Positions 4,894-28,889 are shown, counted from the stretch's first letter. The stretch is 39,568 nucleotides of DNA from Comamonadaceae bacterium (GCA_947476015.1 CANJOS010000009.1:1-39568), one strand, 5' to 3'. Notes: generated by a model not told the origin, from the letters alone. Numbers and translations: made by a program.

Positions 4894-4898
4894 AGAAC

Positions 4899-6778: not shown

Positions 6779-6792
6779 AGACACTGAAGCCC

Positions 6793-7593: not shown

Positions 7594-7626
7594 ACCATAT
7601 ACAAACCACTCAGGGAGACATTACAT

Positions 7627-9180: not shown

Positions 9181-9203
9181 CGATGGGGTCTTAAGGGGCT
9201 AAT

Positions 9204-10163: not shown

Positions 10164-10218
10164 GTCCACCAAGCGCAACTCTAATTTTTTCATTTCGCAT
10201 TGACCTTAAAGTAGCACT

Positions 10219-10983
10219 GTGACACCATTTGCCTCATACCCAAGTCTGATCGATAGAAACGTCTTTATCACGGGGGGCGCTACCGGTATCGGCGCCTGCT
10301 TTGTCAAGCAATTTGTCGCCCAAGGCGCCAGGGTTGGCTTTGTGGACATCGATCTCGCTTCGGGATTCGCGCTGGCCAGAAGTCTGACTGATGCAAGGCA
10401 TGCGCCGCAATTTTTGCAGGCTGACCTGACCGATATTGCAGCACTGGAAAGTGCCATGGCGCAATTTCGCAAACAAGCTGGCCCCATCAAGACCCTCATC
10501 AACAATGCTGCAAATGACCTGCGTTGCCCGATCGAGGAGACTACGCCAGAATCTTGGGATGCCGGCATGGCAGTCAACCTAAAGCACCAGTTTTTTGCTG
10601 CGCGCAACGTAGCGCAAGACATGCAGAAATCTGGCGGAGGTTCCATCATCAATTTAGGCTCCGTCAGTTGGAAGTTGAAGCAAGGCGGAATGCCGGTTTA
10701 CACCACGGCTAAAGCCGCAGTTCAGGGACTCACCCGCAGTCTTGCCCGCGATTTCGGGCCTTTCAATATTCGGGTCAATACTTTGGTGCCCGGTTGGGTC
10801 ATGACTGAAAAGCAAGTTCGCTTGTGGGTGGATGACGCTGCGCGGGAAGCTATTGCGCGCGGACAATGCATCAACCAACCCTTGATGGCAGAGGACCTTG
10901 CCCGCATGGCACTTTTTTTGGCGGCAGATGACAGTGCCATGTGCACGGCGCAAGACTTTGTCGTTGATGGAGGCTGGACGTGA
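10219..10983 (+). CDS. SDR-family oxidoreductase (candidate sugar/L-arabinose 1-dehydrogenase from context; GTG start)
   Basis: VFITGGATGIGACFV cofactor motif, YTTAKAAVQGLTRSLARDFGP active site, C-terminal QDFVVDGGWT. Confidence 0.88.
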   Translation: MTPFASYPSLIDRNVFITGGATGIGACFVKQFVAQGARVGFVDIDLASGFALARSLTDARHAPQFLQADLTDIAALESAMAQFRKQAGPIKTLINNAANDLRCPIEETTPESWDAGMAVNLKHQFFAARNVAQDMQKSGGGSIINLGSVSWKLKQGGMPVYTTAKAAVQGLTRSLARDFGPFNIRVNTLVPGWVMTEKQVRLWVDDAAREAIARGQCINQPLMAEDLARMALFLAADDSAMCTAQDFVVDGGWT

Positions 10984-12071
10984 CAACAGCGCACCCCGGG
11001 ATCACTTGTCGTGAATTTGGCCGCTTGAGCAGTGGCCGTGTCGTTCATGAATACACGCTGAACAATGGTTCTGGCTTGTCTTTAAGCGCTATCAACCTAG
11101 GTGGCATCGTTAGCTCGATCCGCTTTCCCGATCGCAAGGGAAAGCTTGACAATATCGTTCTTGGATTCGCGTCACTGCAGGACTATGAGTTGCGCAACCC
11201 TCACTTTGGCACCATCGTGGGTCGCTTTGCCAACCGGATAGCCAATGGGCAGTTCAAAATTAACGGGAACAGCGTTCAGCTCGATCTGAACGATGGTGTC
11301 AATGCCTTGCATGGCGGGCGCGCTGGTTTTGGATCACGGTGGTGGCAGATCTCGCCGCTTCCCGCCTCCGAAGACGGTGAGGTCGGGATAGAGTTAAGCT
11401 ACGTCAGCGAACATGGCGAAGAGGGTTACCCTGGAAAAATGAACGTTCAGGTGCGTTACACGCTGACGCTAGACAACGCTTGGCGCATTGACTATCAGGC
11501 AAGCTGCGACCGCGCCACGGTAGTCAACCTCGCACACCATGATTACTTTAATCTGGCTGGTTCGGGCAGTATCCTTGATCATGATCTGACAATTTCTGCA
11601 AGCAAGTTTTGCCCAGTCGATAGTGGCCTTATTCCAGAGGGCATTGCGGACGTGACCGATACACCCTTTGATTTTCGTTCGCCAACCCGCATCGGAGAAC
11701 GAATCCGCAAAGCGAGCCCTCAGCTTACTCGGGCCCAAGGCTATGACCATAACTGGCTGCTTGACGCTGTAGACAAACCCGGCTTGCGATTTGCAGCCCG
11801 ACTTGCAGATCCGACCTCTGGGCGCGTGATGGTGATTGAAACAACCCAACCTGGCCTGCAGTTCTACTCAGGCAACTTTCTGGATGGCAGCCTAGTTGGC
11901 GCATCGGGTCAGGCGTACCGGCAAAGTGATGGACTTTGTTTGGAGACTCAACATTACCCAGATTCACCAAACCAAGCGTCATTTCCTTCAACTGAACTGT
12001 GGCCTGGTCAGCTCTATCAAAGTGAGACCTTGTACCGCTTTGCTGTTACCAATGATGTTTCTAAAGATTGA
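10980..12071 (+). CDS. galM: Aldose 1-epimerase (mutarotase; GTG start)
   Basis: GRFANRIANGQF, LNDGVNALHGG, NLAHHDYFNLAGSG, GLCLETQHYPDSPNQASFP motifs. Confidence 0.92.
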   Translation: MTTAHPGITCREFGRLSSGRVVHEYTLNNGSGLSLSAINLGGIVSSIRFPDRKGKLDNIVLGFASLQDYELRNPHFGTIVGRFANRIANGQFKINGNSVQLDLNDGVNALHGGRAGFGSRWWQISPLPASEDGEVGIELSYVSEHGEEGYPGKMNVQVRYTLTLDNAWRIDYQASCDRATVVNLAHHDYFNLAGSGSILDHDLTISASKFCPVDSGLIPEGIADVTDTPFDFRSPTRIGERIRKASPQLTRAQGYDHNWLLDAVDKPGLRFAARLADPTSGRVMVIETTQPGLQFYSGNFLDGSLVGASGQAYRQSDGLCLETQHYPDSPNQASFPSTELWPGQLYQSETLYRFAVTNDVSKD

Positions 12072-12072
12072 T

Positions 12073-13035
12073 ATGAAACAAATGCGTGAAATTCAACCAC
12101 ACCGAAACACTGAAAAGTCTGAGCAAGGACCTTCTGTTTCTTTCGCCAATTTGGCCTTGAAGCAAGTCTGCACTTTGGGCGAGTGCTTGTTGTGGGACGC
12201 GCGGGGCCAACGCTGGTGCTGGACTGACATCGAAGAAGCCTGCGTCTTCACTTGGACTGGTGGCAAAGACTTCCCCCTGCGCCATGCTTTACCCGACCGT
12301 TCGGGCTGCTTCGCAATCGCAAAGTCTGGCAGATGGCTCATAGGTCTTGCAAAAGGTCTTGCATGGGGCGATTGGGAAGGACAGTCCTTGGTGGTCACGC
12401 CACTCTGCCCAGTCGAAGCCGAACAGCCCGAAACACGCATCAATGACGGTAGGACTGACCGAAGCGGTCGCTTGGTATTTGGAACGCTGCATGAAGCAGC
12501 GGAGAGACTGCCGACAGGTCGCTTTTACCAATACTCTTTGGATCATGGTTTAAGACGCCTTGATCTGCCGCCGGTGCGCATCGCTAACAGCATTTGCTTC
12601 AGCCCAGACGGCCGAACGATGTATTTCACGGATACCCCAACCGGCATGATTCAGCAATGCAGCTACGACAGTGATACCGGCCAAGTAGGCGAGCCTCGCA
12701 CCTTTGCACATGTCACTGCACCCGGTTATCCCGATGGCTCTGTTGTGGACGCGCAGGGGTGCCTTTGGAATGCGCAGTGGGGAGCCTCGCGCGTGCAACG
12801 CTTTTCTCCAGAAGGACAATTGTTGTTTGAAGTTTTGTGCGAGGCGCCACAGATCACCTGCCCAGCTTTTGGTGGTGCTGACTTGGACACGTTGATGATC
12901 ACCAGCGCAAGGGAACACATGGGCCCACAAGCTTTGGAGCAGTCACCTTTGTCTGGCAGCCTCTTTTGTCATCAGGCGCTTGGTGGCTTGGGGCTACAGG
13001 ATGCATTTTTCGATGACCAACCAAGCACAACCTAA
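12073..13035 (+). CDS. SMP-30/gluconolactonase/LRE family protein (candidate sugar lactonase)
   Basis: LGECLLWDARGQRWCWTDIEE, RINDGRTDRSGRLVFGTL, ANSICFSPDGRTMYFTDT, GYPDGSVVDAQGCLWNAQWG motifs; ATG at 12073 preferred over upstream ORF start 11896. Confidence 0.92.
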   Translation: MKQMREIQPHRNTEKSEQGPSVSFANLALKQVCTLGECLLWDARGQRWCWTDIEEACVFTWTGGKDFPLRHALPDRSGCFAIAKSGRWLIGLAKGLAWGDWEGQSLVVTPLCPVEAEQPETRINDGRTDRSGRLVFGTLHEAAERLPTGRFYQYSLDHGLRRLDLPPVRIANSICFSPDGRTMYFTDTPTGMIQQCSYDSDTGQVGEPRTFAHVTAPGYPDGSVVDAQGCLWNAQWGASRVQRFSPEGQLLFEVLCEAPQITCPAFGGADLDTLMITSAREHMGPQALEQSPLSGSLFCHQALGGLGLQDAFFDDQPSTT

Positions 13036-13157
13036 ACAGTTGCCATCTCCAGTAACATCCAAAAAGAAAAAGGGTCTGCAAAGTCTCACGGGGAAACGCA
13101 GTCCCTTGTCTTTAATCCAGTTTCATCAAGACCACTCGATGCACGTCACTTAATTGC

Positions 13158-13889
13158 TCATTGTGGTACTTTTTTTTGGCTCGCAGAACGAAGTTTTCTG
13201 AACTTGATATTGAGCATTTCAACGCATACTGAAAAAGCCATCGCAAAATAAATAGAGCCTTTTGGGATATGGTGCTCGAAGCCTTCAGCAATGAGCACGA
13301 CGCCAACGACAACCAGAAAGCTCAGTGCCAGCATTTTGATAGAAGGGTGATTAGATACAAACTCACCAATTGCGCGAGCAAATACCATCATCAAAGCGAC
13401 CGAAGCGATCACAGCCGCAATCATGATTTCAACTTCATCAACCATGCCAACAGCAGTGATGATGGAGTCAAGGGAAAAAACCAGGTCAATCACCATGATT
13501 TGAAAAATAACAGAAGCAAACGTCACTTTTTTACCAGTGGCCTGTGCATGCTCCGCACCTTCAATCGAATCGTGAATTTCAGTAGTGCTTTTCCATATAA
13601 GGAATAGGCCACCCAAAATCAAGATGGCATCTCTTCCTGAGATGGCATGCCCTTGCACGGTCAGCATGGGTTCTACCAAGCCCACAATCCAAGATAAAAC
13701 CAAAAGCAATCCAATTCTCATGAACATGGCCATGAACAAGCCAATTTTTCTTGCAAGCTCTCGTTTTTCTAATGGAAGCTTGTCTACCAAAATTGAAATA
13801 AAAATGATGTTATCAATACCAAGAACTAACTCTAGGGCTGTCAGTGTTGCAAATGCAACCCATGCTTCTGGCGAGGTAAGGATTTCCAT
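13158..13889 (-). CDS. TerC family integral membrane protein
   Basis: ALELVLGIDNIIFISIL and MVIDLVFSLDSIITAVGM TerC/YkoY signatures. Confidence 0.92.
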   Translation of the reverse strand: MEILTSPEAWVAFATLTALELVLGIDNIIFISILVDKLPLEKRELARKIGLFMAMFMRIGLLLVLSWIVGLVEPMLTVQGHAISGRDAILILGGLFLIWKSTTEIHDSIEGAEHAQATGKKVTFASVIFQIMVIDLVFSLDSIITAVGMVDEVEIMIAAVIASVALMMVFARAIGEFVSNHPSIKMLALSFLVVVGVVLIAEGFEHHIPKGSIYFAMAFSVCVEMLNIKFRKLRSASQKKVPQ

Positions 13890-13957
13890 TTTTAATGACT
13901 TTTGGGGTTGAGGTTTTGACTGATTAATTATGGATTACAAAAATCTCGGGTATGACG

Positions 13958-14023
13958 GGCTAAATGCTTGATTCATATGGGGTGGCTGATGGGGCTTGAA
14001 CCCACGACAACAGGAATCATAAT
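13958..14023. repeat. Direct repeat copy 1 (candidate att site, left end)
   Basis: 66-nt block matching 26803-26868 with 4 mismatches by eye. Confidence 0.8.
13978..14023 (-). pseudogene. Partial tRNA-His (3' half only, from anticodon loop to CCA)
   Basis: Reverse complement ATTATGATTCCTGTTGTCGTGGGTTCAAGCCCCATCAGCCACCCCA matches the 3' half of tRNA-His at 26823-26899; no 5' half present. Confidence 0.85.
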
Positions 14024-14267
14024 GCCACTATTCAACCCAGTATCCATGCAGGTTTAAGGGGAGTTCATGGAAATAAATACCCCGATTTACCCCTGAATTC
14101 GCCTTGGTTCTGGGGATTTTATTTCCACGTAAAATTACCCGAGAATTGACGCTAATTAGAAAGCTCAGCTTCCTTTTGCAGGCTAACTGCACCCTACCCT
14201 CATTTAAGCCCCCAGTGCAAAGCATCAAGTCAAGATTGAAGCGCCGCCGCAGGATATCCCCCTAGAG

Positions 14268-14570
14268 GTGTTGCCCGACTGGTATGGCTCAATTTCGGAT
14301 TTAGGCCTTAAGCATGAGCGTCGTCAAAAACTCAGCAACCAAATTCATGAACAGATAAAAATGGTCAAGGCCGTTCAATCTCGAACTGAGTTTTTACCAG
14401 TCAAGATCCACAGCATTAAAGGTGAGGTTCCAGGGGAGACGCGCAAAGTCGAGATCTCCAAGCGCTTAAAACCTTGGAGGTGGCCCAGGGATAGCGGCAA
14501 GATGTGTATCACGGTACGCTATGGTGCTAGCACACTCGAGGTTGTCGAAGGCAAAAAGCCATTGAGATAG
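14268..14570 (+). CDS. Small conserved hypothetical protein, possibly a truncated accessory gene
   Basis: ORF of 100 aa with KVEISKRLKPWRWPRDSGKMCITVRYGASTLEVVEGKKPLR; resembles accessory/plasmid-borne small proteins I recall in Burkholderiales (family not verified). Confidence 0.4.
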   Translation: MLPDWYGSISDLGLKHERRQKLSNQIHEQIKMVKAVQSRTEFLPVKIHSIKGEVPGETRKVEISKRLKPWRWPRDSGKMCITVRYGASTLEVVEGKKPLR

Positions 14571-14651
14571 AGAACATTTCAAGCGTTATCAGTTGAAACT
14601 GCGTCATACGTGAACTATCGATCATCTGTGTCTGCTTACTTCTTGAGATAC

Positions 14652-15656
14652 CTACTGAACAAGCTTCTTTGGATCAATTTGCGCCACTGACTCTTTCCAG
14701 CGTTGTCTGTCTTCTCGCAAGAAGGCCGCAAAACGCTCGGGCGTGATGGCGGAGTTAAGTTCAAACCCTATCTTGAGCAGAACGTTGTCAATGAAGTCTT
14801 TTGACGAAACCGCAGCCCAAACTACGCTGGACATGTGCTTGACGATTGCAGTCGGTGTAGCAGCTGGCGCGAACATTCCGAACCAGGCGCTGATCACATA
14901 ATCCGCAATGCCCTGCTCCATAAATGTGGGTACTGCTGGCAACAGTGGGTGGCGCTGGGCTCCCGTCACGGCCAACGCCTTAACCTTGCCGGTCGCGATA
15001 TGCGGAAGTGGCAGCGTAAGGGCTGCAAAGAGAATTTTTGTGTCGCCAGCCAATAGTGAGTTGAATGCTGGGGCGATCCCTTGATAGGGCACGTGGATCA
15101 TTTCGATACCGACCTTGCCAATGAATCTTTCCATAGCGATATGGTGCTGACTTCCGATTCCTGCAGAGGCGTAGGCGATTTTGCCTGAATTGGCCTTGGC
15201 GTAGGTTACGAGTTCCTGCAGATTTCTAGCCGGGAAGTCGCTCGCCGTGACCAGCGCTAGCGAAGCCTGACAAAGGAGACTCACAGGTGCAAAATCAGTT
15301 TCGGGATTGAACTGCATTGGCGTGCCAAGTGCTGGAATGATTGAGAAGGCTGGGTCATTTCCAAGCAAGAGGTTATAGCCATCGGCCGGCGCGCGCGCAG
15401 CAATAGAGGCAGCAAGTTGGCCAGCCGCGCCGGGCTTGTTCTCAAAAACCAGGGGTTGACCCAGTTGTGCCTGGACCCGCTGACCGACATGGCGGCCAAT
15501 AAGCTCCAGTGTGCCGCCGGCAGGGAATGGAACGAGGCACTTGATTGGTCGAATGGGGAACGCGGCCTGGGCCAAGGCGAACTGACCTAAGCCCGATAAC
15601 GGCACAGAGGCAGCAAGACTTGTGAAGCTTCGGCGGTTAATGTTGAAAGACATCAT
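14652..15656 (-). CDS. Bug/TctC-family tripartite tricarboxylate transporter substrate-binding protein
   Basis: YPxRPIK-like FPIRPIKCLVPFPAGGTLE, VFENKPGAAGQLAA, HVPYQGIAPAFNSLLAGD, WFGMFAPAATP motifs. Confidence 0.93.
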   Translation of the reverse strand: MMSFNINRRSFTSLAASVPLSGLGQFALAQAAFPIRPIKCLVPFPAGGTLELIGRHVGQRVQAQLGQPLVFENKPGAAGQLAASIAARAPADGYNLLLGNDPAFSIIPALGTPMQFNPETDFAPVSLLCQASLALVTASDFPARNLQELVTYAKANSGKIAYASAGIGSQHHIAMERFIGKVGIEMIHVPYQGIAPAFNSLLAGDTKILFAALTLPLPHIATGKVKALAVTGAQRHPLLPAVPTFMEQGIADYVISAWFGMFAPAATPTAIVKHMSSVVWAAVSSKDFIDNVLLKIGFELNSAITPERFAAFLREDRQRWKESVAQIDPKKLVQ

Positions 15657-15686
15657 CGGGTGTTTCCAATCAGTAGCTGAGCAAGT

Positions 15687-16739
15687 TCACGGCACAAACT
15701 TTTTAGGATTGATCATGGCCACAGACTCGCGCCACTTACGTCGGTCCTCACGGATGAACGCAGCAAATTGCTCTGGGGCGACTGAAGGATATGGGTCAAA
15801 GCCGGCTGGAAGAAGCACGTTATCGGTAAACTCTTTAGTAGACGCAGCCTCCCAGATCAAGGTTGAAAGACGTTTGGTGATTTCCATCGGTGTGCCAGAG
15901 GGTGCAAACATGCCGAACCAAGCGCTGATGACGTAGTCGGGGAAGCCCGATTCACGAAATGTTGGCACATTGGCAAGGTTCGGATGGCGTTGTGCGCCGG
16001 TGAAAGCCAACGCCTTGAGACGGCCTGATTTGATGTGTTCTCGTGGCAGAGCGATGGCTGCGAGCATCACGTTGGTGTCGCCGGCCAGAAATGCATTGAA
16101 GGCTGGCGCAATGCCTTGGTAAGGCACATGAAGCATATCTATTCCGGTACGCGCCATTAGCCTTTCAATCGCCACGTGGTGCTGGCTACCTACGCCTCCC
16201 GTGCCGAAGCTGAGTTTGCCGGGGTTGGCCTTTGCGTAAGCGATGAATTCTTGTAGGGTGTTGGCTGGAAAGTTGGCACTTGTAATGAGCGCCAATGACA
16301 CCTGGGTGAGCAATGACAGCGGTACGAAATCGCGGTCAGGATCGAATTGCATTGGCATACTCAAGGCCGGAAGAATTGAGAATGGAACATCGTTTGCTAG
16401 AAGTAGCGTGTAGCCATCGGCCGCAGCGCGGGCAACAAACTGGGTTCCAAGCATCAATGATGCGCCGGGCTTGTTGTCGATTACAAATGGCTGACCCAAC
16501 ACCGGTTGGGTCCTCAAGCCTAGAGGTCGAATAACAGCGTCGAAGGCGCTGCCGGCTGGCACAGGGATTACAACTCGGATAGGTCGATTGGGGTATGTGC
16601 TTTGAGCGTGCACAGGTGCTGCGATGCCGGCCAGCGCAGCCGCGGCTAAACCAATAGCACTGCGACGACTTAAGTCATTGGGCAAACCGTTTAGCGGCAT
16701 GCCTTCGCCGCTGATGTGTGCGAGAGAGTGACTTTCCAC
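15687..16739 (-). CDS. Bug/TctC-family tripartite tricarboxylate transporter substrate-binding protein (paralogue of the neighbour)
   Basis: YPNRPIRVVIPVPAGSAFD, VIDNKPGASLMLG, HVPYQGIAPAFNAFLAGD, ISAWFGMFAPSGTP. Confidence 0.93.
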   Translation of the reverse strand: MESHSLAHISGEGMPLNGLPNDLSRRSAIGLAAAALAGIAAPVHAQSTYPNRPIRVVIPVPAGSAFDAVIRPLGLRTQPVLGQPFVIDNKPGASLMLGTQFVARAAADGYTLLLANDVPFSILPALSMPMQFDPDRDFVPLSLLTQVSLALITSANFPANTLQEFIAYAKANPGKLSFGTGGVGSQHHVAIERLMARTGIDMLHVPYQGIAPAFNAFLAGDTNVMLAAIALPREHIKSGRLKALAFTGAQRHPNLANVPTFRESGFPDYVISAWFGMFAPSGTPMEITKRLSTLIWEAASTKEFTDNVLLPAGFDPYPSVAPEQFAAFIREDRRKWRESVAMINPKKFVP

Positions 16740-16853
16740 GGTATCTCCTGGTACTGGTTGGGCCCAATTTAGTTAAATCATAGCGAGCGGTATGCTGACT
16801 TGCAAATTAATTCTTTGCTTTCTGTCATAAGTATTCTCGATTAGCAATTTCGC

Positions 16854-17777
16854 TCAAGCCTTGAGACGCGCAGGTGCTGGTGGTCGACCCTGTTCTACCA
16901 AAGAGGCCTCCACCAAATCGACGAAGGCCTGTGCTGCCGCTCCCAATACACGCGAAGTTTGCCACACAAGATGGATCGGGCGCCCTAAATCAGCAGCGAC
17001 GATTGGAATCACCACTACTTTGTCGGGTTCAAAGAAGGGCGCCGCTACGCTGGGCACCACGCTGACGCCTAAGCCAGCGGAAACGAGTCCGGACACAGTC
17101 GGTAGTTGCTCCACTTCCATCACTTCGTTCAAAGCAATACCCCTCATCGCCAATTCCAAATGTTGGCCAAGTATCCCCGATCGGGCATAGCGGATAAGGT
17201 CGACGCCCAAAAGATCTTGCAGCTTCAAGCGTTTGCGCCTAGCCAAGGGGTGGTCGTGTCGGCAAACCAAAACAAAGGTCTCGTGAAACAGAACCCTGTA
17301 CTGCAGCCCGGCCAGGGGCCCAGGTGCACTCAGAATGGCAAAGTCTGCCTGTCGCTCTCTTACCAACTCAAGGCAGCGGGTCGGCTGCAGGTCGAACAGT
17401 TCAAATCTAATGCCTGGGTAGGTTGCGCGGTAGTCAGCAATCAACTGCGGCAACCAAAGCGCGGCAAACGGCAAGGTCGCGCATACTGCGACGCGGCCCT
17501 TGCGCATATTGGAGCGGTCGCGCAGGTCAGTGCCGATTTCGTCTAACTCTGCCACCATGCGACGGGCAGAGGCGACGAAACGATCACCATCGGGCGTTAG
17601 GCCTACGCGGCGTCGGTCGCGATCTACCAACCGTACGCCAACGTCGCTTTCCAGTTTTGCGACCATCTGGCTGAGCGCTGATTGGGTCACGTTGCACTGC
17701 TCTGCCGCCAAAGAAAAGTGGCGCAACTCATCCAGCGCGATCAGAGCGCGCAGTACCCGGGTGGAAACATTAATCAC
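16854..17777 (-). CDS. LysR-family transcriptional regulator
   Basis: N-terminal HTH ALDELRHFSLAAEQCNVTQSALSQMVAKLESDVGVRLVDRDRRRVGLTPDG. Confidence 0.95.
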   Translation of the reverse strand: MINVSTRVLRALIALDELRHFSLAAEQCNVTQSALSQMVAKLESDVGVRLVDRDRRRVGLTPDGDRFVASARRMVAELDEIGTDLRDRSNMRKGRVAVCATLPFAALWLPQLIADYRATYPGIRFELFDLQPTRCLELVRERQADFAILSAPGPLAGLQYRVLFHETFVLVCRHDHPLARRKRLKLQDLLGVDLIRYARSGILGQHLELAMRGIALNEVMEVEQLPTVSGLVSAGLGVSVVPSVAAPFFEPDKVVVIPIVAADLGRPIHLVWQTSRVLGAAAQAFVDLVEASLVEQGRPPAPARLKA

Positions 17778-17864
17778 AGTTACTAATCACAGAAGGAAAG
17801 AAATTAATTGTACTGGCGCGTACGGTTTGCCTAAGATGAGCAAATCTTAAGGAAAAAGCGCGCC

Positions 17865-19943
17865 ATGCACCAGAATTTGCATTACCTCGTCGCCATCGAT
17901 ATTGGCGGCACTTTTACCGACATGGCGGCATTTGACCGCCGTACGGGTGAGGTCCATGCGGCCAAGCAACTTACTGATTACGCCGCCTTCTTCGACTCTA
18001 TCGGCCGATGCCTCCAAGACCGCAAGATTTCGCTCAAAGATGCGGAGAGTTTCAAACACGGCACTACTCTTGTGATCAATGCACTGCTTGAACGTCAAGG
18101 CGCTAGAACAGCGCTGGTATCGACGCGCGGTTTTAGTGATGTAGTTGAAATAGGAAGGGGTAATCGCCCATTGCAGTTTGAACTTGAGTACAACCGCAAG
18201 GAGTCACTCATACCCCGCGAGTTGCGTCTAGAGATTGATGAGCGTATGAGCGGACAAGGCGAGGTTATCACCGCACCCGCAGAGGCAAGCGCAGACATCC
18301 TTGCTGCGCAGTTGCGCGCGGTCGGGGCTGAGTCTGTCGCGATTTCCTTTATCAACAGTTATGCCAACGATGCGCACGAGCAGCAGGTCGCCGCCTGGTT
18401 GCGCGCGCGACTACCAGGGGTGTTTGTGTGCACTGGCTCAGAGCTATCGCGTGAGTGGTATGAATACGAACGCAGTTGCACTGCCTGTGCCAACGCTTTT
18501 GTCGGTCCACAGATGGGCCGATATGCAACAGGGCTTGATTCAATCTTGGACCAGCAGGGGTTCACCGGTAAGCGCTTTTTCATGGGCTCTGGCGCAGGCG
18601 CCATCTCACTTGCCCAAGCCGCACGACAGCCGATCAGGCTGGTAGAGTCAGGGCCTGTTGGCGGCCTAGTCGGCGCGGCGGCCTATGCTCGTGCACTGGG
18701 TATTTCCAGCATGGTCGCTTTCGACGTTGGCGGCACGACTGCCAAATGCGCGCTGGTCAAGGCGGCAACCTTTGAGATAAACACGACTTACTGGGTCGGC
18801 GGCTACGCAAGAGGTACCCCTATTCGCAGCAGCATCATTGACATCGTTGAAGTCGGCGCGGGGGGGGGCTCCATAGCCTACGTTGATTCCCTCGGTAGGC
18901 TGCACGTTGGCCCACGCAGCGCCGGCTCCAACCCCGGTCCTGTGGCCTATGGACGTGGCGGCAAAGAACCTACTGTTACGGACGCCAATGTGGTGCTTGG
19001 TCGTATCAACCCTGAAAACTTTCTTGGCGATGGCCTGCATTTGGATGTACAGGCTGTGAACGATGCGCTTCGTTCTAAGTTGGCCGAACCGCTTGGTTTA
19101 AGTGATTCTCCCAACTTGGCAGCGCTCGCATCGGGTATCTTGACGATTTCATCGGTGCTGATGGCTGGAGCCATCCGCAAGGTCACCGTTGAGCGCGGCG
19201 AGGATCCGCGCGACTATGTACTGTTTGCCTATGGCGGCGGTGGTCCATTGCACGCGGTAGAACTGGCTCGGGAGATTGGAATTCCGCGCGTTGTGATTCC
19301 GCCCCGTGCCGGTATCTTCGCTGCGCTCGGCATGCTGTTTGCAGACCTTGAAAACGATTCCTCAGCCACCTTCCTTCAACCACTTGAAGATGACAGTATG
19401 CAAAGCGCGCAGGCGGCCCTTGGCAAACTTGATGCAGAAGCTGTGGCGGGCTTGGGTGAGTCGGCGAAGGGCGAGCCTTTCACCATTACCCATTCGGCGG
19501 AGCTGCGCTACCGCGGACAAATGCATTCACTAAAAGTCCCGCTTGATATAACGTCGGGTGCAGCTGCAATTCGATCAAGCTTTGAGAAGCTCTATGCAAA
19601 GCGCTTTGGCTACGCCAGTAGCACCGGGGCCGTGGAGTTTGTTGCACTCGGCGCCACGGCTACTGCAGCCGCACCCAAACCCGAGCTAGCAGCAATCACG
19701 CCTGCACCGTCTGGAGGCGATCCGCTTATTGGTTCGCGGCGAGTTTACCTTTCGGACAAGGAAGGTTGGGCCAATGTTGCGGTTTATCAGCGAAGTCGAA
19801 TGACCGAGGGCTTTAGCGCAACTGGACCGGCCATTGTTGAGGATTTTGGCTGCAGTTGCTTTGTAGACGCAGCCTCTTCCATGCGGGTGGGTAAGTACGG
19901 AGAGCTTTGGCTTGAGTTGCATACCCTAGGAGACAAGTTATGA
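17865..19943 (+). CDS. hyuA: Hydantoinase/oxoprolinase family protein, subunit A (HyuA-like)
   Basis: AIDIGGTFTDMAAFD, FKHGTTLVINALLER, VAFDVGGTTAKCALV, EVGAGGGSIAYVDSLGRLHVGPRSAGSNPGPVAYGRGG. Confidence 0.94.
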   Translation: MHQNLHYLVAIDIGGTFTDMAAFDRRTGEVHAAKQLTDYAAFFDSIGRCLQDRKISLKDAESFKHGTTLVINALLERQGARTALVSTRGFSDVVEIGRGNRPLQFELEYNRKESLIPRELRLEIDERMSGQGEVITAPAEASADILAAQLRAVGAESVAISFINSYANDAHEQQVAAWLRARLPGVFVCTGSELSREWYEYERSCTACANAFVGPQMGRYATGLDSILDQQGFTGKRFFMGSGAGAISLAQAARQPIRLVESGPVGGLVGAAAYARALGISSMVAFDVGGTTAKCALVKAATFEINTTYWVGGYARGTPIRSSIIDIVEVGAGGGSIAYVDSLGRLHVGPRSAGSNPGPVAYGRGGKEPTVTDANVVLGRINPENFLGDGLHLDVQAVNDALRSKLAEPLGLSDSPNLAALASGILTISSVLMAGAIRKVTVERGEDPRDYVLFAYGGGGPLHAVELAREIGIPRVVIPPRAGIFAALGMLFADLENDSSATFLQPLEDDSMQSAQAALGKLDAEAVAGLGESAKGEPFTITHSAELRYRGQMHSLKVPLDITSGAAAIRSSFEKLYAKRFGYASSTGAVEFVALGATATAAAPKPELAAITPAPSGGDPLIGSRRVYLSDKEGWANVAVYQRSRMTEGFSATGPAIVEDFGCSCFVDAASSMRVGKYGELWLELHTLGDKL

Positions 19944-21640
19944 AAAATGAAATATCAGTCGCGTCCATCGACGCCGTGACCGTTGAAGTTTTGCGCCACA
20001 GACTCTACGCCATCACCGACCAGATTGAAGCCAACATCATCCGTACGGCATTCAGCCCGCTAATTTACGCTTACAAAGACTTCGCAGTCGGAATGGTGGA
20101 CGCAGACGGCCAGCTCGTCTGCATGGCACGAGGTGGTATACCGCTGTTCTGCTCGACTTTGCTTAGTGTTGCGGTCAAGGACGGCATTGATCTGTATGGT
20201 CATGACGGCATCAAAGACGGCGACGTCATCATCTGTAACTACTCTGGGGTGATCGGCCAGCACCTGAATAATGTGGCCATGTACGCGCCTATTTTCGAGC
20301 CTGGTGCGACAAGGCCATGCGCCTTCATGGTGGTGGTTGTCCACTGGATGGATGTAGGCGGGCGTGACATCGGTTCGGCTTCATCCAACACCACGCAGAA
20401 CATTTTCCAAGAAGGTATCCAGTTCCGTACGGTCAAGCTGTGGAGCGAGGGCAAGCCAGTAGCCGATATGTACCGCATGATCGAATACAACACGCGGTTT
20501 CCGCAGATGGTTCTAGGTGATATCGGCTCGCAGTTGGCTGGCTGCATGCTTGGGCGCGAGCTGTATGGCCAGATGTTGGCTCGTTACGGCCTGCCGACTG
20601 TTACAGCTGCTATTGCACGCATACTGAATGACTCTGAACGCATCGCGCGCGATGTCGTTCGCGGTATGCCTGACGGCAGTTATGTGGCCGAAACCTTTCT
20701 GGATGACGACGGCGTTGATTTTGGCAAGCCCGTGGTGATACGCGCGACTGTAACAATCAAGGGCGACAACATCAATATAGACCTGTCGGGCTGCGCCCCA
20801 GTGCTGCGTGGCGCCATCAACTCCGGGCGCCACGGCGGCGGTGAGTCTGTCGCTGGTATCGGTCTGGCTTTCATTGTCGGTGGCGAGGATGCGCCCAATG
20901 CTGGCACCTTCCGCGCTCTTACTGTGACCTTGCCCGAAGGCACATTTCTAAGCGCCCCAGCCACTGCACCCATGGCACGCTACAGCTCACCGATGGCCAC
21001 GGTAGTCGATGTCGTTCTGCAGGCCGCTGGCCAGGCCCTTCCGCAGCGGGTCACGGGGGGTCATCACGGCACCTTCGGTATTCATGCGTTTTCAGGGTAC
21101 GACAGCAAGGGGCACTTATTTCGTATTGTCGACACCAGCCAGGGGGGCTATGGGGCGAGTGCTCGCGCCGACGGACCTGGACCATTCAAGACGCTGGTAC
21201 ATGGCGACTCGGCCAATGTGCCGGTTGAGTTGCAGGAGGCGCTGTACCCGTACCGCTTTGAGTCAGTTAGGTTGCGTCAAGATTCTGCAGGCCCGGGACG
21301 CTATCGCGGTGGATTGGGCGTGATCAAGGACTACCTTGTAACTGCGCCGTGTCGCCTGAACTGTGCATTTGACCGCGTTTTGTGCCCCCCCTGGGGAGTG
21401 CAAGGTGGCGGTGACGCTATCCCAGGCAAGGTCACCATTCTCAGGGCCAACGGTACTGAGGAACTCATGTTGAAGGGCGATACAGCCATGTTGCCAGGCG
21501 ACAGAGTCCGCATCGAAACGGCAGGCGGCGGTGGCTTTGGCAATCCACGTGAGCGGCCCCGTGAAGAGGTGCTGCATGATCTGCGGCGCGGATACATCAG
21601 TGAGACGGCGGCGCGCACAGACTATTTTTTCAGGAGATGA
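19940..21640 (+). CDS. hyuB: Hydantoinase B/oxoprolinase family protein (HyuB-like)
   Basis: DAVTVEVLRHRLYAITDQIEANIIRTAFSPLIYAYKDFAVGMVD, C-terminal GGGGFGNPRERPREEVLHDLRRGYIS; ATGA overlap with hyuA. Confidence 0.94.
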   Translation: MKNEISVASIDAVTVEVLRHRLYAITDQIEANIIRTAFSPLIYAYKDFAVGMVDADGQLVCMARGGIPLFCSTLLSVAVKDGIDLYGHDGIKDGDVIICNYSGVIGQHLNNVAMYAPIFEPGATRPCAFMVVVVHWMDVGGRDIGSASSNTTQNIFQEGIQFRTVKLWSEGKPVADMYRMIEYNTRFPQMVLGDIGSQLAGCMLGRELYGQMLARYGLPTVTAAIARILNDSERIARDVVRGMPDGSYVAETFLDDDGVDFGKPVVIRATVTIKGDNINIDLSGCAPVLRGAINSGRHGGGESVAGIGLAFIVGGEDAPNAGTFRALTVTLPEGTFLSAPATAPMARYSSPMATVVDVVLQAAGQALPQRVTGGHHGTFGIHAFSGYDSKGHLFRIVDTSQGGYGASARADGPGPFKTLVHGDSANVPVELQEALYPYRFESVRLRQDSAGPGRYRGGLGVIKDYLVTAPCRLNCAFDRVLCPPWGVQGGGDAIPGKVTILRANGTEELMLKGDTAMLPGDRVRIETAGGGGFGNPRERPREEVLHDLRRGYISETAARTDYFFRR

Positions 21641-21641
21641 C

Positions 21642-22592
21642 ATGAAAATAGCAAGATATGAACTTAGCGGAGAACAGCCAAAGGGTAAACGAGAGCGACT
21701 GGGGATTGTGTTGCTTCAGGACGGCCATGAGATGCTGCTCGACTTAGACCGTGCCGCCGCCGCGCGTGGTGGCCCATTGACAACGCCATCAACAGTCATC
21801 AGTCTTGTTGAGGGACAGAGTCGCTCCATGGACGCCACGCGTGAGTTGCTCCAGTGGGTTACGGGCCGCATGGACCCTCATTGGCTGGACGATCCCGCAC
21901 AAGTTTGTTGGCTCACGCCAGTACCCCCCAAGTCGATGATCAGTGCCGGTCGTAACTTTGGCCGTCACAAGATGGAGTCGATCAAGGGGAACCCGGCCAG
22001 CGGCAGTAAGCTACACAGCGATTTCCCAACCGGCTTCATCAAGCTTGCTCGCACTCTGGTGCCGCACAAGAGCCATGTGAAAAGGCCCAGTGATGTTTTG
22101 TTACTGGACTACGAAGTTGAGATCGTTGTCGTTATTGGTAAGACCATTGACGCCGACAGTAATGCCGATCCGGCTTCGGCCATCTTTGGTTATACGGTTT
22201 TCAATGATCTTTCCGCGCGCGAGTGGCAGATCAAGGAAATGAACAACAACATGCTCATGCTGGGTAAAAACTTTCCCGGGTTCGGCCCCCTTGGTCCCTA
22301 CATCCTCACTGCTGACGAGGTACAAGATCCAAAATCACTGGTGCTTTGGTTGAAGGTCAACGGCGAGTTACGCCAGCACTCTGACTGTCGCGATCTGATC
22401 TTCGACTTCGAGGAGATGGTAGCTTTCTGGTCGCGCTTTGGTTTGGTGCCAGGCGACTTGATTAGCACCGGCACACCTGAAGGCGTGGCTCTGCACCATA
22501 AACCAGACCCCATGGATTGGTACTTGAAACCTGGCGATATCGTGCAAGCTGGCGTGGACGGAATTGGTGTTTTGGAGACTACGATAGTTTGA
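21642..22592 (+). CDS. Fumarylacetoacetate hydrolase (FAH) family protein
   Basis: SAGRNFGRHK, LDYEVEIVVVIGK, FNDLSAREWQ, GDLISTGTPEGV, LKPGDIVQAGVDGIGVLE; ATG at 21642 in the frame of ORF 21531. Confidence 0.92.
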   Translation: MKIARYELSGEQPKGKRERLGIVLLQDGHEMLLDLDRAAAARGGPLTTPSTVISLVEGQSRSMDATRELLQWVTGRMDPHWLDDPAQVCWLTPVPPKSMISAGRNFGRHKMESIKGNPASGSKLHSDFPTGFIKLARTLVPHKSHVKRPSDVLLLDYEVEIVVVIGKTIDADSNADPASAIFGYTVFNDLSAREWQIKEMNNNMLMLGKNFPGFGPLGPYILTADEVQDPKSLVLWLKVNGELRQHSDCRDLIFDFEEMVAFWSRFGLVPGDLISTGTPEGVALHHKPDPMDWYLKPGDIVQAGVDGIGVLETTIV

Positions 22593-22659
22593 CGGCGCCT
22601 TTCTCGTGCACTAAATGCCTCAGGAATTTTTCTACATTCCATCCTTAGATTGTTTTCAT

Positions 22660-22747
22660 CATGGAATAGGCCTTGGTGCATGCTTGCTAGGCGTGATAGC
22701 CACGCAGACCAAGCCCACGACTGAGTTCGCGGTTGATGGTGCTGTGG
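22660..22747 (-). pseudogene. Possible IS30-family transposase fragment
   Basis: Reverse strand reads HSTINRELSRGLGLRGYHA-stop-QACTKAY, similar to IS30 HTH STISRELRR...GYR. Confidence 0.4.
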
Positions 22748-23163
22748 CACATCGTCTTACGTGATGCAGCCTTTGAGGCCATGGCCTATGATTTCTTCCA
22801 AAGGCACACCCAATTCGCGAGCTAACTTGCGTGTCTAAGGAGACGCGTGGGGCAGGCCCAGAAGAGGGCTTGCCGCAGGGTTATGTGCAGGAGTCGTCAC
22901 GGTTGTAATCAGCTTCGCTGCAGGAAATGAATTTGTGATGGCCCTCGCAGACTCAACCGAAAAGGGATGAATTGCAGATTGAACTAGCACGGTGACATCT
23001 TGGATCGGTGGTGTAGTCGATGACGCTGCGTCGTCTGTTACAGATTCCAGCAACAAAACCACCACCCCTGCTTGTCCTTGTCGTCAACCTTGACCAACAA
23101 TTCAATGATCGAAACTTCGCCTAAGTCACCGATGTTAGGGACTTTTACTTCCTTCAATTTCAT
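22748..23163 (-). pseudogene. aceF: Degenerate aceF (pyruvate dehydrogenase E2): lipoyl-domain start, linker and E1/E3-binding-domain remnant
   Basis: MKLKEVKVPNIGDLGEVSIIELLVKVDDK, then a frame change to GVVVLLLES plus linker, then TRKLARELGVPLEEIIGHGLKGCIT*DDV with in-frame stops; no catalytic domain. Confidence 0.8.
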
Positions 23164-25754
23164 GCACTTACTTCCAACTCAGCCAAAGCGCGAGAAACGA
23201 TGCTTTGTGCATCGACTTGGAAAAACGAACGCAAAACAGCACGTGTATCGCTGCGGCCAAAGCCATCAGTACCCAGCGTACGGTAGCCACGGCCTTTCGG
23301 CAAATAGGCACGGACAGTTTCGGGAACGGCTCGAACGTAGTCGGTGGCAGCCAATATAGGGCCTGAACTGCCCCCAAGCAAATGGGCCAGGTAGGGCTCA
23401 TCACCATCGCATTCGTGCGCCATCCCGTCACGCGCCAATTCGCTCCAGCTAGTAATGCTGTAAACGTCTGCACCGATGCCCTTATCGGCAAGTTGCTGAG
23501 CCGCCTGAATCACTTCGGTGAAGATGGCACCGGAGCCCAGCAAGGTCACACGCTGGCCGCCTACGGGGCCGTAGCTGCCAAAATTGTAGCCCCCACGCAG
23601 CACACCATTCGCCGCACCCTCTGGCAAATCAGGGTTGGCGTAGTTCTCGTTCATGAGCGTGACGTAATAGAAAACGTCCTGCTGTTCAACCAGCATCTCT
23701 CGCATGCCGGCGTCCAGGATCACCGCGAGTTCGCCTGCAAAGGCCGGATCGTAAGCCTTGCAATTTGGGATGGTTGAAGCCATTAGGTGACTGCTACCAT
23801 CTTGGTGTTGCAGGCCCTCACCGGCCAAAGTGGTACGTCCCGAAGTGGCACCTAGCAAGAACCCCCGTGCACGTTGATCGGCAGCAGCCCAAATGGCGTC
23901 GCCGACGCGTTGAAAGCCGAACATGGAGTAGTAAATATAGAAAGGCAGCATGGCCAAACCGTGCACGCTATAGCTTGTGGCAGCTGCTGTCCAGCTGGCA
24001 ATCGCACCGGCCTCGCTGATACCTTCTTCCAAGATCTGTCCATCCCGCGCCTCACGGTAGGAGAGAACTGAGCCGATGTCTTCAGGTGAATAGCGTTGGC
24101 CTACGCTGCTGTAAATGCCGACCTGTTTGAACAAATTGGCCATGCCGAAAGTTCGAGCCTCGTCGGCAACGATGGGGACGACGCGCGGACCGAGATCCTT
24201 GTCCTTGAGCAAGGTACCGAGCATGCGAACAAAGGCCATGGTGGTGCTCATCTCTTTGCTGTCAGCTTTGAGGGCGAACTGTGCATAGCTCCCGATAACT
24301 GGCACCGGCACTACGGCGCATACCGTCACTCGCCTCGGCATGGCACCGCCAAGCGCCGCACGATGCTCGCGCAAATAACGCATCTCAGGGCTATGGTCGT
24401 CGGGCTTGAAGAATTCCAGCCCTTTAGCCTGCTCATCGGTAAGCGGAAGGTTGAATCGATTTCTAAATTCGATCAAATCGGTTTCATCGAACTTCTTCTG
24501 ACTGTGCGTGGTCATCTTGCCTTGGCCGGCTGATCCCATGCCGTAACCTTTCTTAGTCTGCGCCAAAATCACGGTCGGCTGACCTGTGTGGGCGGCGGCG
24601 GCGGTGTAAGCGGCATGGATCTTCACCAAATCATGACCACCGCGCTTGAGGCGATCGATCTGCTCGTCAGTCATGCCTTGTGCCAAACGGGCGAGTTCTT
24701 CGTTCTGACCAAAGAAGTTGTCGCGGTTGAAGCGCCCGTCTTTGGCTGCGAAGGTCTGCATCTGACCGTCCACTGTTTGAGCAAAGGCACGTGCCAATGC
24801 GCCGGTGTTATCCCGCGCAAACAAGCCATCCCAGTCGCTGCCCCAGACCAACTTGATGACGTTCCAACCCGCACCTGCGAAGAGCTTTTCCAGTTCGTCG
24901 ATGATGCGGCCATTGCCGCGTACAGGCCCATCAAGACGCTGGAGGTTGCAGTTGACTACCCAGACCAAGTTGTCAAGCTTTTCACGTGCAGCAAGTGTCA
25001 ACGCACTTAAACTCTCAGGCTCATCCATCTCGCCGTCGCCAAAAACGCCCCAGACTTTTCTGGTACTGCAATCGATCAACTGGCGATTCGTGAGGTAACG
25101 CATGAATCGCGCGTGGTAAATCGAGCTTATGGGGCCGATGCCCATTGAGCCAGTGGGGAACTGCCAAAAATCGGGCATCAGCCACGGATGCGGATAGCTG
25201 GACAGGCCACGAGCACCACTGGCTGGCGCGCTGATTTCCTGGCGGTAGTGCAGCAGATCAGCTTCGCTCAAACGACCCTCCAAGAATGCACGAGCATAGA
25301 CACCGGGAGCACTGTGCGGCTGGAAAAAAACCAGATCGCCACGGTGCACTTCATTGCGTGCATGGAAAAAATGATTGAAGCCTATCTCAAACAAATCTGC
25401 AGCGCTGGCATAGCTGGCGATGTGTCCACCAAGTTCGCCATAGGCTTGGTTAGCGCGCACCACCATAGCCAGCGCATTCCATCGCATGAGGGAAGCCAGG
25501 CGCTCCTCTAATGCGAGGTCGCCAGGAAAGCCGGGTTGATCTTCGACCGCAATAGTGTTGATGTAGGGCGTGTTCAACTCTGGCTGCCAACCGATGCGCT
25601 GTTCGCGCGCCAAGCGTGCCATCTCATCCAAGATCTGCCTTACCCGAGCTGGCCCCTCGCTGACAGCGAGCGATAACAAAGCATCGCGCCACTCTTGGGT
25701 TTCTGCTTGGTTTGAATCGGGACAAGGCGAAGCGGGGTTTTGCAATGGTTTCAT
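23160..25754 (-). CDS. aceE: Pyruvate dehydrogenase E1 component, homodimeric AceE type
   Basis: LSSYPHPWLMPDFWQFPTGSMGIGPISSIYHARFMRYL, VWGVFGDGEMDEPESL, NCNLQRLDGPVRGNGRIIDELE (ThDP motif), C-terminal SDTRAVLRSFFQVD; Met at 25754 or 25796. Confidence 0.95.
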   Translation of the reverse strand: MKPLQNPASPCPDSNQAETQEWRDALLSLAVSEGPARVRQILDEMARLAREQRIGWQPELNTPYINTIAVEDQPGFPGDLALEERLASLMRWNALAMVVRANQAYGELGGHIASYASAADLFEIGFNHFFHARNEVHRGDLVFFQPHSAPGVYARAFLEGRLSEADLLHYRQEISAPASGARGLSSYPHPWLMPDFWQFPTGSMGIGPISSIYHARFMRYLTNRQLIDCSTRKVWGVFGDGEMDEPESLSALTLAAREKLDNLVWVVNCNLQRLDGPVRGNGRIIDELEKLFAGAGWNVIKLVWGSDWDGLFARDNTGALARAFAQTVDGQMQTFAAKDGRFNRDNFFGQNEELARLAQGMTDEQIDRLKRGGHDLVKIHAAYTAAAAHTGQPTVILAQTKKGYGMGSAGQGKMTTHSQKKFDETDLIEFRNRFNLPLTDEQAKGLEFFKPDDHSPEMRYLREHRAALGGAMPRRVTVCAVVPVPVIGSYAQFALKADSKEMSTTMAFVRMLGTLLKDKDLGPRVVPIVADEARTFGMANLFKQVGIYSSVGQRYSPEDIGSVLSYREARDGQILEEGISEAGAIASWTAAATSYSVHGLAMLPFYIYYSMFGFQRVGDAIWAAADQRARGFLLGATSGRTTLAGEGLQHQDGSSHLMASTIPNCKAYDPAFAGELAVILDAGMREMLVEQQDVFYYVTLMNENYANPDLPEGAANGVLRGGYNFGSYGPVGGQRVTLLGSGAIFTEVIQAAQQLADKGIGADVYSITSWSELARDGMAHECDGDEPYLAHLLGGSSGPILAATDYVRAVPETVRAYLPKGRGYRTLGTDGFGRSDTRAVLRSFFQVDAQSIVSRALAELEVSA

Positions 25755-25821
25755 AGGACAAAACTTTAGCGTTTGTGCTGCCGCATGTGCTACCATAGTT
25801 CACTGAAAAATGTGGGCAAAT

Positions 25822-25836
25822 CAGAATATTAATTCA
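25822..25836. promoter_or_regulatory. Lrp-box-like sequence between aceE and the divergent Lrp/AsnC gene
   Basis: CAGAATATTAATTCA, about 12/15 to the E. coli Lrp consensus YAGHAWATTWTDCTR by eye. Confidence 0.35.
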
Positions 25837-25849
25837 ATAAAATAGAGAA

Positions 25850-26329
25850 ATGCAGCATATTAGTCTTGATTCCATGGATTTACGCATCCTTGACCAATTA
25901 CAGCGTGACGGCGCTCTTTCTAACGTTGAGCTGGCCAAACGGGTCTGCCTTTCTCCATCTCCTTGCTTGGCGCGTGTGAAAGCAATGGAGAGTGCCGGCG
26001 TGATTCACCGCTATGTGGCCCTGGTCAGCGCTGCGGCACTGGGACTTGGTTTGACTGTTTTCATTTCCATCAGCCTCAAGGCTCAAAGCAAGGCAACGTT
26101 GGCTGAGTTTGAGTCTCATATTGGCAGGCACAACGAAATCATGGAGTGCTATCTGATGACAGGTGACAGTGATTACCTGCTAAGGGTCGTTATCAGTGAT
26201 ATGGCCGCGTTGGAACGTTTTATTTTGGAACAGCTTTCGCCAATTCCAGGGGTGGAAAAAATCCGATCGAGCTTCGCGCTCAAACAGGTTCGCTACAAGA
26301 CGGCATTGCCGTTGCCGCAACAGAATTAA
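25850..26329 (+). CDS. Lrp/AsnC-family transcriptional regulator
   Basis: LDSMDLRILDQLQRDGALSNVELAKRVCLSPSPCLARVKAMESAGVIHRY HTH and CYLMTGDSDYLLRVV RAM domain. Confidence 0.95.
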   Translation: MQHISLDSMDLRILDQLQRDGALSNVELAKRVCLSPSPCLARVKAMESAGVIHRYVALVSAAALGLGLTVFISISLKAQSKATLAEFESHIGRHNEIMECYLMTGDSDYLLRVVISDMAALERFILEQLSPIPGVEKIRSSFALKQVRYKTALPLPQQN

Positions 26330-26639
26330 AGTGCGCATTTGCTGCCGATAATGTGATGTCGCGTTGCTAAACTTCAAATCAACCCAGTGGACGTAAGGCA
26401 GGTTGAGGCAACAACTTGCTTTGTCCGTTAATTGGCCTGGTGGTTAACAAACACCTTGATCAGTCAATCACTGTTTGCTACAAACCATCAAAGTTCGAAG
26501 CGAGTGTCCGCTTCTTAAAGATGTAGCTTTGCCACGGCTGCTTTGGAGAAGAAAAATTACCGATTAGTCATCACTTTCGGTTCTGAAAATGAAAATCAAT
26601 GAAAGAATGCTTTCGCGACATTTGAGTCACTGAAGCCCA

Positions 26640-26683
26640 AAAGTCAAACTGCCGCTTTAGATCGAAATCAGCAGTTTAACTTT
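26640..26683. repeat. Intergenic inverted repeat / hairpin
   Basis: AAAGTCAAACTGC (26640-26652) and GCAGTTTAACTTT (26671-26683), 13-nt arms with one mismatch, 18-nt spacer. Confidence 0.6.
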
Positions 26684-26776
26684 GGCTGATAGATGACCGA
26701 TTTAAGCGTGAAGTCACCTCAGACTGAACTTCAAACAAACTCAAAGAACGGTATAGCGGCGGTATTGGCTTGACAC

Positions 26777-26806
26777 AAAAAAGCCCCACTCTTGTGAAGT
26801 GAGGCT
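26777..26806 (-). terminator. Rho-independent terminator downstream of tRNA-His
   Basis: Reverse strand AGCCTCACTTCACAAGAGTGGGGCTTTTTT. Confidence 0.75.
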
Positions 26807-26868
26807 AAGTGCTTGATTCTTATGGGGTGGCTGATGGGGCTCGAACCCACGACAACAGGAATCACAAT
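26803..26868. repeat. Direct repeat copy 2 (candidate att site, right end, overlapping tRNA-His 3' half)
   Basis: Matches 13958-14023 at 62/66 positions by eye. Confidence 0.8.
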
Positions 26869-26899
26869 CCTGGACTCTACCAACTGAGCTACAGCCACC
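26823..26899 (-). tRNA. tRNA-His (GTG)
   Basis: Reverse strand GGTGGCTGTAGCTCAGTTGGTAGAGTCCAGGATTGTGATTCCTGTTGTCGTGGGTTCGAGCCCCATCAGCCACCCCA; extra G-1 pairing, GTG anticodon, encoded CCA. Confidence 0.96.
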
Positions 26900-26933: not shown

Positions 26934-28889
26934 TTAGGCGCCCTTAGTCTCTTGCCCAGGCTTAGCGAGAACGGGTTTGGTCACCAAAATTTCGGCCTTC
27001 ATCATCCGTTTCAATTGTGCCAAATAGGCCTGGGTTTCAGCAGAACCCCACAGCTGGGTGAACTGTTGTTGAGCTTGCGCAATCAATACTTTGCTGTCAG
27101 CTTCCGGCGCTAGAACCTTGGTCACGCGAACCACAGAATAGCCCTGAGCACCTAAATCGACACCATTTAAAACAGGCAACTGATTGGGGTCGGCCCTCAA
27201 GGCTGCGTCGATCACTTGAGGCCGTTGATTTTGTGTCTTTTCGCGTGAAATCACAATAGCACCTGGCAAACTGTCAGCATTGATTTTCAAGGCAGCGAGC
27301 TTTTGCTCGCCTTGCGTCTTGGCCATTTCGGCGGCTTTGTCTTGCGTCAAATTGCGCTTGACCAGGTCCTTCACCTCTGCCAATGGCAAGGCGGCCGCAG
27401 GCTGGTGCTTCACAACACGCGCTGAAATCAAGGTGCTGGGTGCCACCTCAACAGCCTCCGTGTTGCGCTGTTTTTGCAGCGACGCCTCGCTGAACAAAGC
27501 CTGTAGCAAGGTGGGATGCGCCAATGGATTTTTGGCCTGCTGTGCAGAAGCCAAAGGTTGGCGAATAACTTGATTCGCCTTTTGAATGCTGAGTTTGAGT
27601 TTGTCCGCCACGGGTTTCAAACTGTCGGATTGCTCGTAAACCATGTTGGTGAAAGTCTCAGCAGACTCAGCAAACTTGCGCTGTGCTAATTGCTTTTTCA
27701 AATCAGCCTCGAGCGCTGGTCGCATGGACTCAAAGCTCTGAGCCTTAGGTGACTTGATGTCGGTGAGTTGAATGATGTGAAAACCAAACTCAGACTCCAC
27801 AACTTCGCTGATATCGCTCTTTTTCATGCTGAAGGCAGCATCTTCAAAGGCCTTGACCATGGCACCCCGGGCAAAGAAATCTAAGTCCCCACCTTTCACT
27901 GCAGAGCCAGGATCTTGGGAGTTTTTACGGGCCACCTCGGCAAAACTGGCCGGCTTGGCTTTCACATCCTTAAGCAAGGCCTCAGCTTTGGCGCGAGCTG
28001 TTTTCTTGTCGGCTTCTGGGGCATCTTTCGCCGCAGTGATCAGAATGTGGCTGGCGCGGCGCTCTTCTTTGCTCGACAAGCGCTGCAGGTTTTGTTCGTA
28101 GTAAGTTTTAAGCTCTTGCTCATTGACCACCACAGTTTGGCGCAAGCTCTCTATGTCCAGGATGACATACTCGATGTCAGCAGATTCTGTCGATTGAAAC
28201 TTGGCCGTATTTTTGTCGTAGTAAGCCTGTAAATCGGCATCGCTGAGACTCACCTTGCTGAGGTAATCAGCCGCTGGAAAGTTCAAAACTTGGACTTCAC
28301 GGCGCTGCATAAAGGCATTCATGGCAGTTTGCGTTTGGGCTTGTGTGGCGTAAGCGGAAGCTTGCACGCCCTGAATCACTTGGCGATTGGACAAATCGGC
28401 ACGAACTTGCATCTCAAACATTTCAGGTGTCATGCCCTGAGATGCTGCCAACTGCTTGTAGCGCTCCATGTCTAATTTGCCATCGGCTGTGCGCAAGGCT
28501 GCAATGGCAGGGCTTTGCTGCAGTTCACGGGCCAGACGTGTATCGCTGGCCACCAACTGCATTTTTTGAGCCGCTGCAGCAATCACTTGATCGCGAACAA
28601 GTCGCTCAAGGGTGGCGTATTTCGCTTCAGGGGTGTCAAAAATTTTGACGTCGATGCTGGGCATGGATGCGCGAATGCGATCGACTTCCCGCTTGTGGGC
28701 TGCGTCCCATTCAGCTTGATTGATTTTGTTGCCATTGACTTTGGCCACCACAGCGCCTTGGTCATTGAATCGGCTGTAGCCTTCAAGACCAAACAAAACG
28801 AAGGAAGGGATGATGAGCAGGAACAAAATGCCCATCATGATCTTGGTGTTGTTTCGGACAAAATCAAACATGTAATAACTCTCTGTCAA
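26934..28889 (-). CDS. ppiD: SurA N-terminal/parvulin-type periplasmic folding chaperone (PpiD-like)
   Basis: N-terminal MFDFVRNNTKIMMGILFLLIIPSFVLFGLEGY anchor; parvulin domain ASHILITAAKDAP...GGDLDFFARGAMVKAFEDAAF...SEFGFHIIQLTDI. Confidence 0.93.
   Translation of the reverse strand: MTESYYMFDFVRNNTKIMMGILFLLIIPSFVLFGLEGYSRFNDQGAVVAKVNGNKINQAEWDAAHKREVDRIRASMPSIDVKIFDTPEAKYATLERLVRDQVIAAAAQKMQLVASDTRLARELQQSPAIAALRTADGKLDMERYKQLAASQGMTPEMFEMQVRADLSNRQVIQGVQASAYATQAQTQTAMNAFMQRREVQVLNFPAADYLSKVSLSDADLQAYYDKNTAKFQSTESADIEYVILDIESLRQTVVVNEQELKTYYEQNLQRLSSKEERRASHILITAAKDAPEADKKTARAKAEALLKDVKAKPASFAEVARKNSQDPGSAVKGGDLDFFARGAMVKAFEDAAFSMKKSDISEVVESEFGFHIIQLTDIKSPKAQSFESMRPALEADLKKQLAQRKFAESAETFTNMVYEQSDSLKPVADKLKLSIQKANQVIRQPLASAQQAKNPLAHPTLLQALFSEASLQKQRNTEAVEVAPSTLISARVVKHQPAAALPLAEVKDLVKRNLTQDKAAEMAKTQGEQKLAALKINADSLPGAIVISREKTQNQRPQVIDAALRADPNQLPVLNGVDLGAQGYSVVRVTKVLAPEADSKVLIAQAQQQFTQLWGSAETQAYLAQLKRMMKAEILVTKPVLAKPGQETKGA

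Follow-up and report, generated by a model that had tools for sequence, protein, structure and literature searches.

In Dehalococcoides, tandem islands targeted to ssrA are stacked behind a single RNA gene; a copy of the gene's 3' end bounds each of them, and 15 of these ssrA islands carry no integration module (PMC3146451). Streptococcal CIMEs likewise show accretion and occur in tandem with ICEs and IMEs, the most decayed elements lying farthest from the target gene (PMC7563491). The locus described here resembles the Dehalococcoides islands in its stacking, its 3'-end copies, its integrase-less members and its catabolic cargo, which in Dehalococcoides is respiratory. It differs from them in the target (tRNA-His instead of tmRNA), the repeat (45–52 nt in the genus studied here instead of 20 bp) and the enzymes (tyrosine instead of serine recombinases) (PMC3146451). 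A stacked, integrase-less island at a tRNA gene is a well-known type of event, and the present site is a further example.

The window, a stretch of 39,568 nucleotides, belongs to a metagenome-assembled genome (MAG; 2.8 Mb in 218 contigs, 79% complete) of a freshwater Limnohabitans-type bacterium. ARAGORN located an intact tRNA-His(GTG) gene at 26823–26898 on the minus strand. It is the sole intact tRNA-His gene of its genome, and its 76 nt are identical in most genomes of the genus. A repeat search of the window returned exactly the 66-nt direct repeat of the original prediction, at 13958–14023 and 26803–26868, with 62 of 66 positions identical (94%) and a start-to-start spacing of 12,845 nt. 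It is by far the longest direct repeat of the window, and a search of all contigs found no third match. The right copy, on the minus strand, comprises nucleotides 31–76 of the intact tRNA and the next 20 nt downstream, which lead into a terminator-like hairpin. The left copy, on the same strand, consists of the corresponding 46-nt 3' half (44 of 46 positions identical to the intact gene) and 20 nt of flank, and ARAGORN called no tRNA there. The earlier description of the two copies is confirmed. The 3' end of the tRNA points toward two segments, which we call island A (14024–26822) and island B (approximately 1740–13957). Attachment sites lie at both ends of A and at the inner end of B, so that only A has an intact tRNA at one end and, at the other, a direct repeat of the tRNA's 3' portion.

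The gene order PpiD (26934–28889), tRNA-His is conserved throughout the genus. Close relatives then carry, directly after tRNA-His, a Stealth-family gene homologous to the one at 613–1683 on the minus strand of the window (Pfam Stealth CR1/CR2; synteny), which is here the first backbone gene past the islands. Thirteen distinct tRNA-His/Stealth junctions were found in relatives; in 12 of these empty sites only 1–169 nt separate the tRNA 3' end from the Stealth start, and in the remaining one 1,100 nt. In the window approximately 25 kb separate the two genes, and near position 1740 homology to the region upstream of the relatives' Stealth gene ends. Thus, the insertion extends from approximately 1740 to 26822, twice the 12.8 kb originally proposed. 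The 12 short junctions indicate that all of this DNA was acquired, with the TerC gene and the arabinoside cluster as cargo. Of the two flanks first regarded as backbone, the right one is, but the left one, from about 1740 to 13957, is accessory. This includes TerC, which had served as the backbone marker; in close relatives Stealth, not TerC, adjoins tRNA-His. None of the 35 other genus genomes searched shows the predicted adjacency of TerC and tRNA-His, since none has a true TerC homologue (none above about 28% identity). The proposed compositional comparison of 14.0–26.8 kb with its surroundings gave only modest differences (coding GC 0.560 in A, 0.508 in B and 0.520 in the right flank). We regard GC content and codon bias as too weak to prove foreign origin.

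Island A, 12.8 kb long and enclosed between tRNA-His and the displaced half, carries catabolic cargo and no integrase. Two TctC/Bug-type solute receptors (14652–15656 and 15687–16739, minus strand; PF03401) and a LysR-family regulator (16854–17777, minus; PF00126 and PF03466) are followed on the plus strand by HyuA-like (17865–19943; PF01968) and HyuB-like (19940–21640; PF02538) hydantoinase/oxoprolinase genes and an FAH-family hydrolase (21531–22592; PF01557), whose real start is probably near 21645. The ORF originally read as aceE (23160–25796, minus) does encode a homodimeric 2-oxoacid dehydrogenase E1, but its top score is to the MdeB-like AKGDH_not_PDH subfamily (NCBIfam TIGR03186), with 1439 bits versus a curated cutoff of 1408. 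Divergent to it lies an Lrp/AsnC regulator (25850–26329, plus; PF01037), and no E2 or E3 gene was identified beside E1 in the island. The E1/Lrp pair (23160–26329) is reminiscent of mdeB-mdeR of Pseudomonas methionine degradation.

The cargo of A (14652–26352) is colinear with a locus in a distant congener (G066, contig C18) at 93–94% DNA identity, and the HyuA-like proteins share 96% of their amino acids. The PpiD sequences of the two genomes are just 64% identical, and the difference points to a recent transfer of the cargo. The ends of A are not common to the G066 locus, in whose flanks, as far as fetched, no tRNA was present, and no integrase was seen among the neighbouring ORFs listed. 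Between the FAH and E1 genes, the otherwise colinear G066 copy lacks a stretch of 478 nt (22610–23087); the one ORF checked in this stretch (22835–23065) had no Pfam or PHROG match. In a megablast search against plasmids, only the E1 gene (76–77%) and the tRNA were matched by the island.

The frame around this cargo has different relatives. At 0.25 kb inside the left end lies a truncated relic of a DUF6641/phrog_31551 gene (14268–14570, plus; 21.9 bits in Pfam against a cutoff of 27; PHROG E = 9.5e-6). It shares 69–73% DNA identity with nine genus loci, and in five genomes (G010, G030, G062, G076 and G075) intact homologues lie approximately 1–8 kb from PF00589 matches, which suggests that the frame of A descended from an integrase-bearing element. 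The non-coding tRNA-side end (26600–26749, plus) is matched at 88–90% identity over 135–150 nt beside the displaced half of G112 and beside tRNA-His of G075. At 14036–14049, 12 nt from the displaced half, the motif CCCAGTATCCATGC occurs in inverted orientation; it equals the first bases of the flank behind tRNA-His in G066, G008 and G112, and is possibly a scrap of another element's end.

Island B, whose left bound is approximate, is missing from 12 of the 13 comparator junctions. According to Pfam, it encodes a peptide/sugar-type ABC transporter, an arabinofuranosidase (7627–9180), a regulator, an SDR, an aldose epimerase, an SMP-30 lactonase and, as its first gene, the TerC-family membrane protein (13158–13889, minus; PF03741). 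The best relative of TerC comes from another family of the order (69%). The arabinofuranosidase gene is absent from all 89 other genus genomes, and its best plasmid match (78%) is from Alphaproteobacteria, with an ABC transporter gene alongside as in the window. Taken with the G066 identity of A, the absence of these marker genes from the other genus genomes searched leads us to conclude that both segments were acquired.

They could have arrived as one 25-kb event with internal rearrangement, or as a pre-formed composite enclosing a tRNA-His fragment. Neither segment has an integrase, no tRNA half exists at the outer left end near 1740 (even when only its 20-nt tail was sought with one mismatch), and transfer of entire composites is allowed for in the CIME literature (PMC7563491). 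Nevertheless, the cargo of A occurs without B in G066 and the B marker gene is missing from the rest of the genus, and we consider a single composite arrival unlikely.

The sequence next to the displaced half bears on the borders of the two segments. This flank (TATGAATCAAGCATTTAGCCCG...) is similar to the DNA behind the tRNA-His sequences of G075 and G112 (TATGAATCAAGCACTTAGCCCGG... and a terminator) and unlike the terminator native to close relatives (TCAAATTCAAAGGGTTTACAAG...). The half at 13958–14023 is best interpreted as an internal boundary where two islands are stacked, and not as a junction with the chromosome. The original reading, a single 12.8-kb island at 14.0–26.8 kb beside a native TerC and arabinoside cluster, has in its favour that A alone has whole or half tRNA copies at both ends. 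It is largely refuted, and very improbable, given the mismatch of this flank with that of close relatives, the Stealth gene in the place of TerC in close relatives, and the lack of TerC and arabinofuranosidase in the rest of the genus searched.

A search for tRNA-His in 90 genomes, that of the window included, followed by inspection of the regions, revealed displaced 3' halves of 45–52 nt in five other genus genomes, in direct orientation wherever tRNA and half lie on one contig. The half is 4.3 kb from the intact tRNA in G023, 6.5 kb in G093, 11.5 kb in G112 and 23.7 kb in G111; in G010 it is on a separate contig. An intact tyrosine integrase (PF00589 and Arm-DNA-bind_3) lies just inside the half in G112, G023, G010 and G093. 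These integrases are 66–83% identical to each other and, judged by this likeness, would form a dedicated family. The four islands match the window in tRNA, approximate size of the half and orientation, and differ from A and B in keeping an integrase beside the displaced half. The closest likeness to the window is G111, a long catabolic island with no integrase-like ORF among the ORFs listed. Integrases of other families adjoin tRNA-His in G034 and G078, the latter in what looks like a prophage. Matches in G004 and G109 were rejected as displaced halves, as they run off contig ends. The congener halves and integrases, the empty-site junctions and the G066 identity together bear out the central claim of the original prediction, a tRNA-His-targeted island with acquired cargo.

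Across the different islands the identity block begins between tRNA nucleotides 25 and 32, which fits a crossover within the anticodon arm. The integrase-bearing tRNA-His islands (L239:3096–3180, L211:1427–1510, L243:519–600) have in common an inverted motif next to the half (GTTGATTTGTAT...ATCAACAC), a candidate integrase arm site. On the element side of the G093 attachment site (L240:8789–8873), tandem CATGTAGCCAC units run into the half tRNA. Several genus contigs end inside or at tRNA-His (L036, L046, L244, L245), a pattern that a tRNA acting as a repeated or variable junction in the sample should produce. Such breaks, and the 218 contigs of the MAG, might prompt the view that the displaced half is a chance match or a binning and assembly artefact, which we hold to be extremely improbable, because 44 of 46 matching positions with a common 20-nt flank are not chance, copies that differ at four sites are not an assembly duplication, and G093 shows the same architecture on a 2.58-Mb contig.

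An integrase within the element is usual, though not universal, for tRNA-targeted islands. As first noted for the island, the window contains no integrase ORF. Nor did a search for relics by phmmer, by tblastn and with an HMM made from seed integrases yield anything below E = 0.07; the home-made HMM was weak and found its own seeds only, so that the real test is the search of the genome with Pfam. An integrase on contig C148 of that genome was rejected as a supplier in trans, because its identity with the tRNA-His integrases is only 21–31%. At 14024, on the element side of A, the motif common to the integrase-bearing islands is lacking.

We consider it likely that two acquired, integrase-less islands were stacked at the 3' end of tRNA-His, a recurrent insertion site, by a tyrosine-recombinase route. 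Island B would have been the earlier arrival, entering between tRNA-His and the Stealth gene, presumably by the same mechanism as A; its site-specific entry is our inference, as no half-tRNA is left near 1740. In the simplest reading, the half now at 13958–14023 once completed the tRNA in front of B. Island A would then have entered the anticodon-arm/3' half of tRNA-His by recombination, catalysed by a tyrosine recombinase. The 3' half of its own attP would have restored the gene, and the resident half, with the first 20 nt of flank of B, would have been shifted to 13958–14023. The order of these steps is likewise deduced. The integrase may have been lost from both islands or never have been in them, with loss or supply in trans as the two routes, and the enzyme most likely belonged to the family that still lies beside the congener tRNA-His halves.

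If stacked in this way, A and B share with CIMEs a cargo without recombination or transfer genes, bounded by att sites on both sides in A and on the inner side in B, the accretion, and a most decayed member, B, at the greatest distance from the target gene. Unlike CIMEs in tandem, they have no ICE or IME stacked with them, and B has one recognisable boundary (PMC7563491). The main ORFs of both segments are metabolic, transport and regulatory only (Pfam), with none for recombination, mobilisation or conjugation, and the ORFs checked with Pfam and PHROG contained no conjugation relic, the DUF6641 relic being the only remnant seen. From their gene content, A and B appear CIME-like; as full members they are only candidates, since B has a single recognisable boundary and descent from an ICE or IME is putative.

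The effect of the two islands is probably niche expansion, as their cargo is catabolic: HyuAB, FAH, a 2-oxoacid dehydrogenase and Bug receptors in A, and arabinoside uptake and breakdown in B. None of the open-literature papers found for Limnohabitans, genomic islands and tRNA concerns the tRNA-His site, to go by their titles and abstracts. The locus marks tRNA-His out as a site of repeated integration in an abundant freshwater genus, with a candidate integrase family, and provides a concrete case of catabolic genes that apparently spread between distant congeners. More speculatively, tRNA-His might be a genus-wide docking port, served by a dedicated family of tyrosine integrases that moves catabolic cassettes lacking an integrase, either in trans or by accretion. 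If this tentative idea is true, cassettes such as A and B would represent a common pool of freshwater substrate-use genes.
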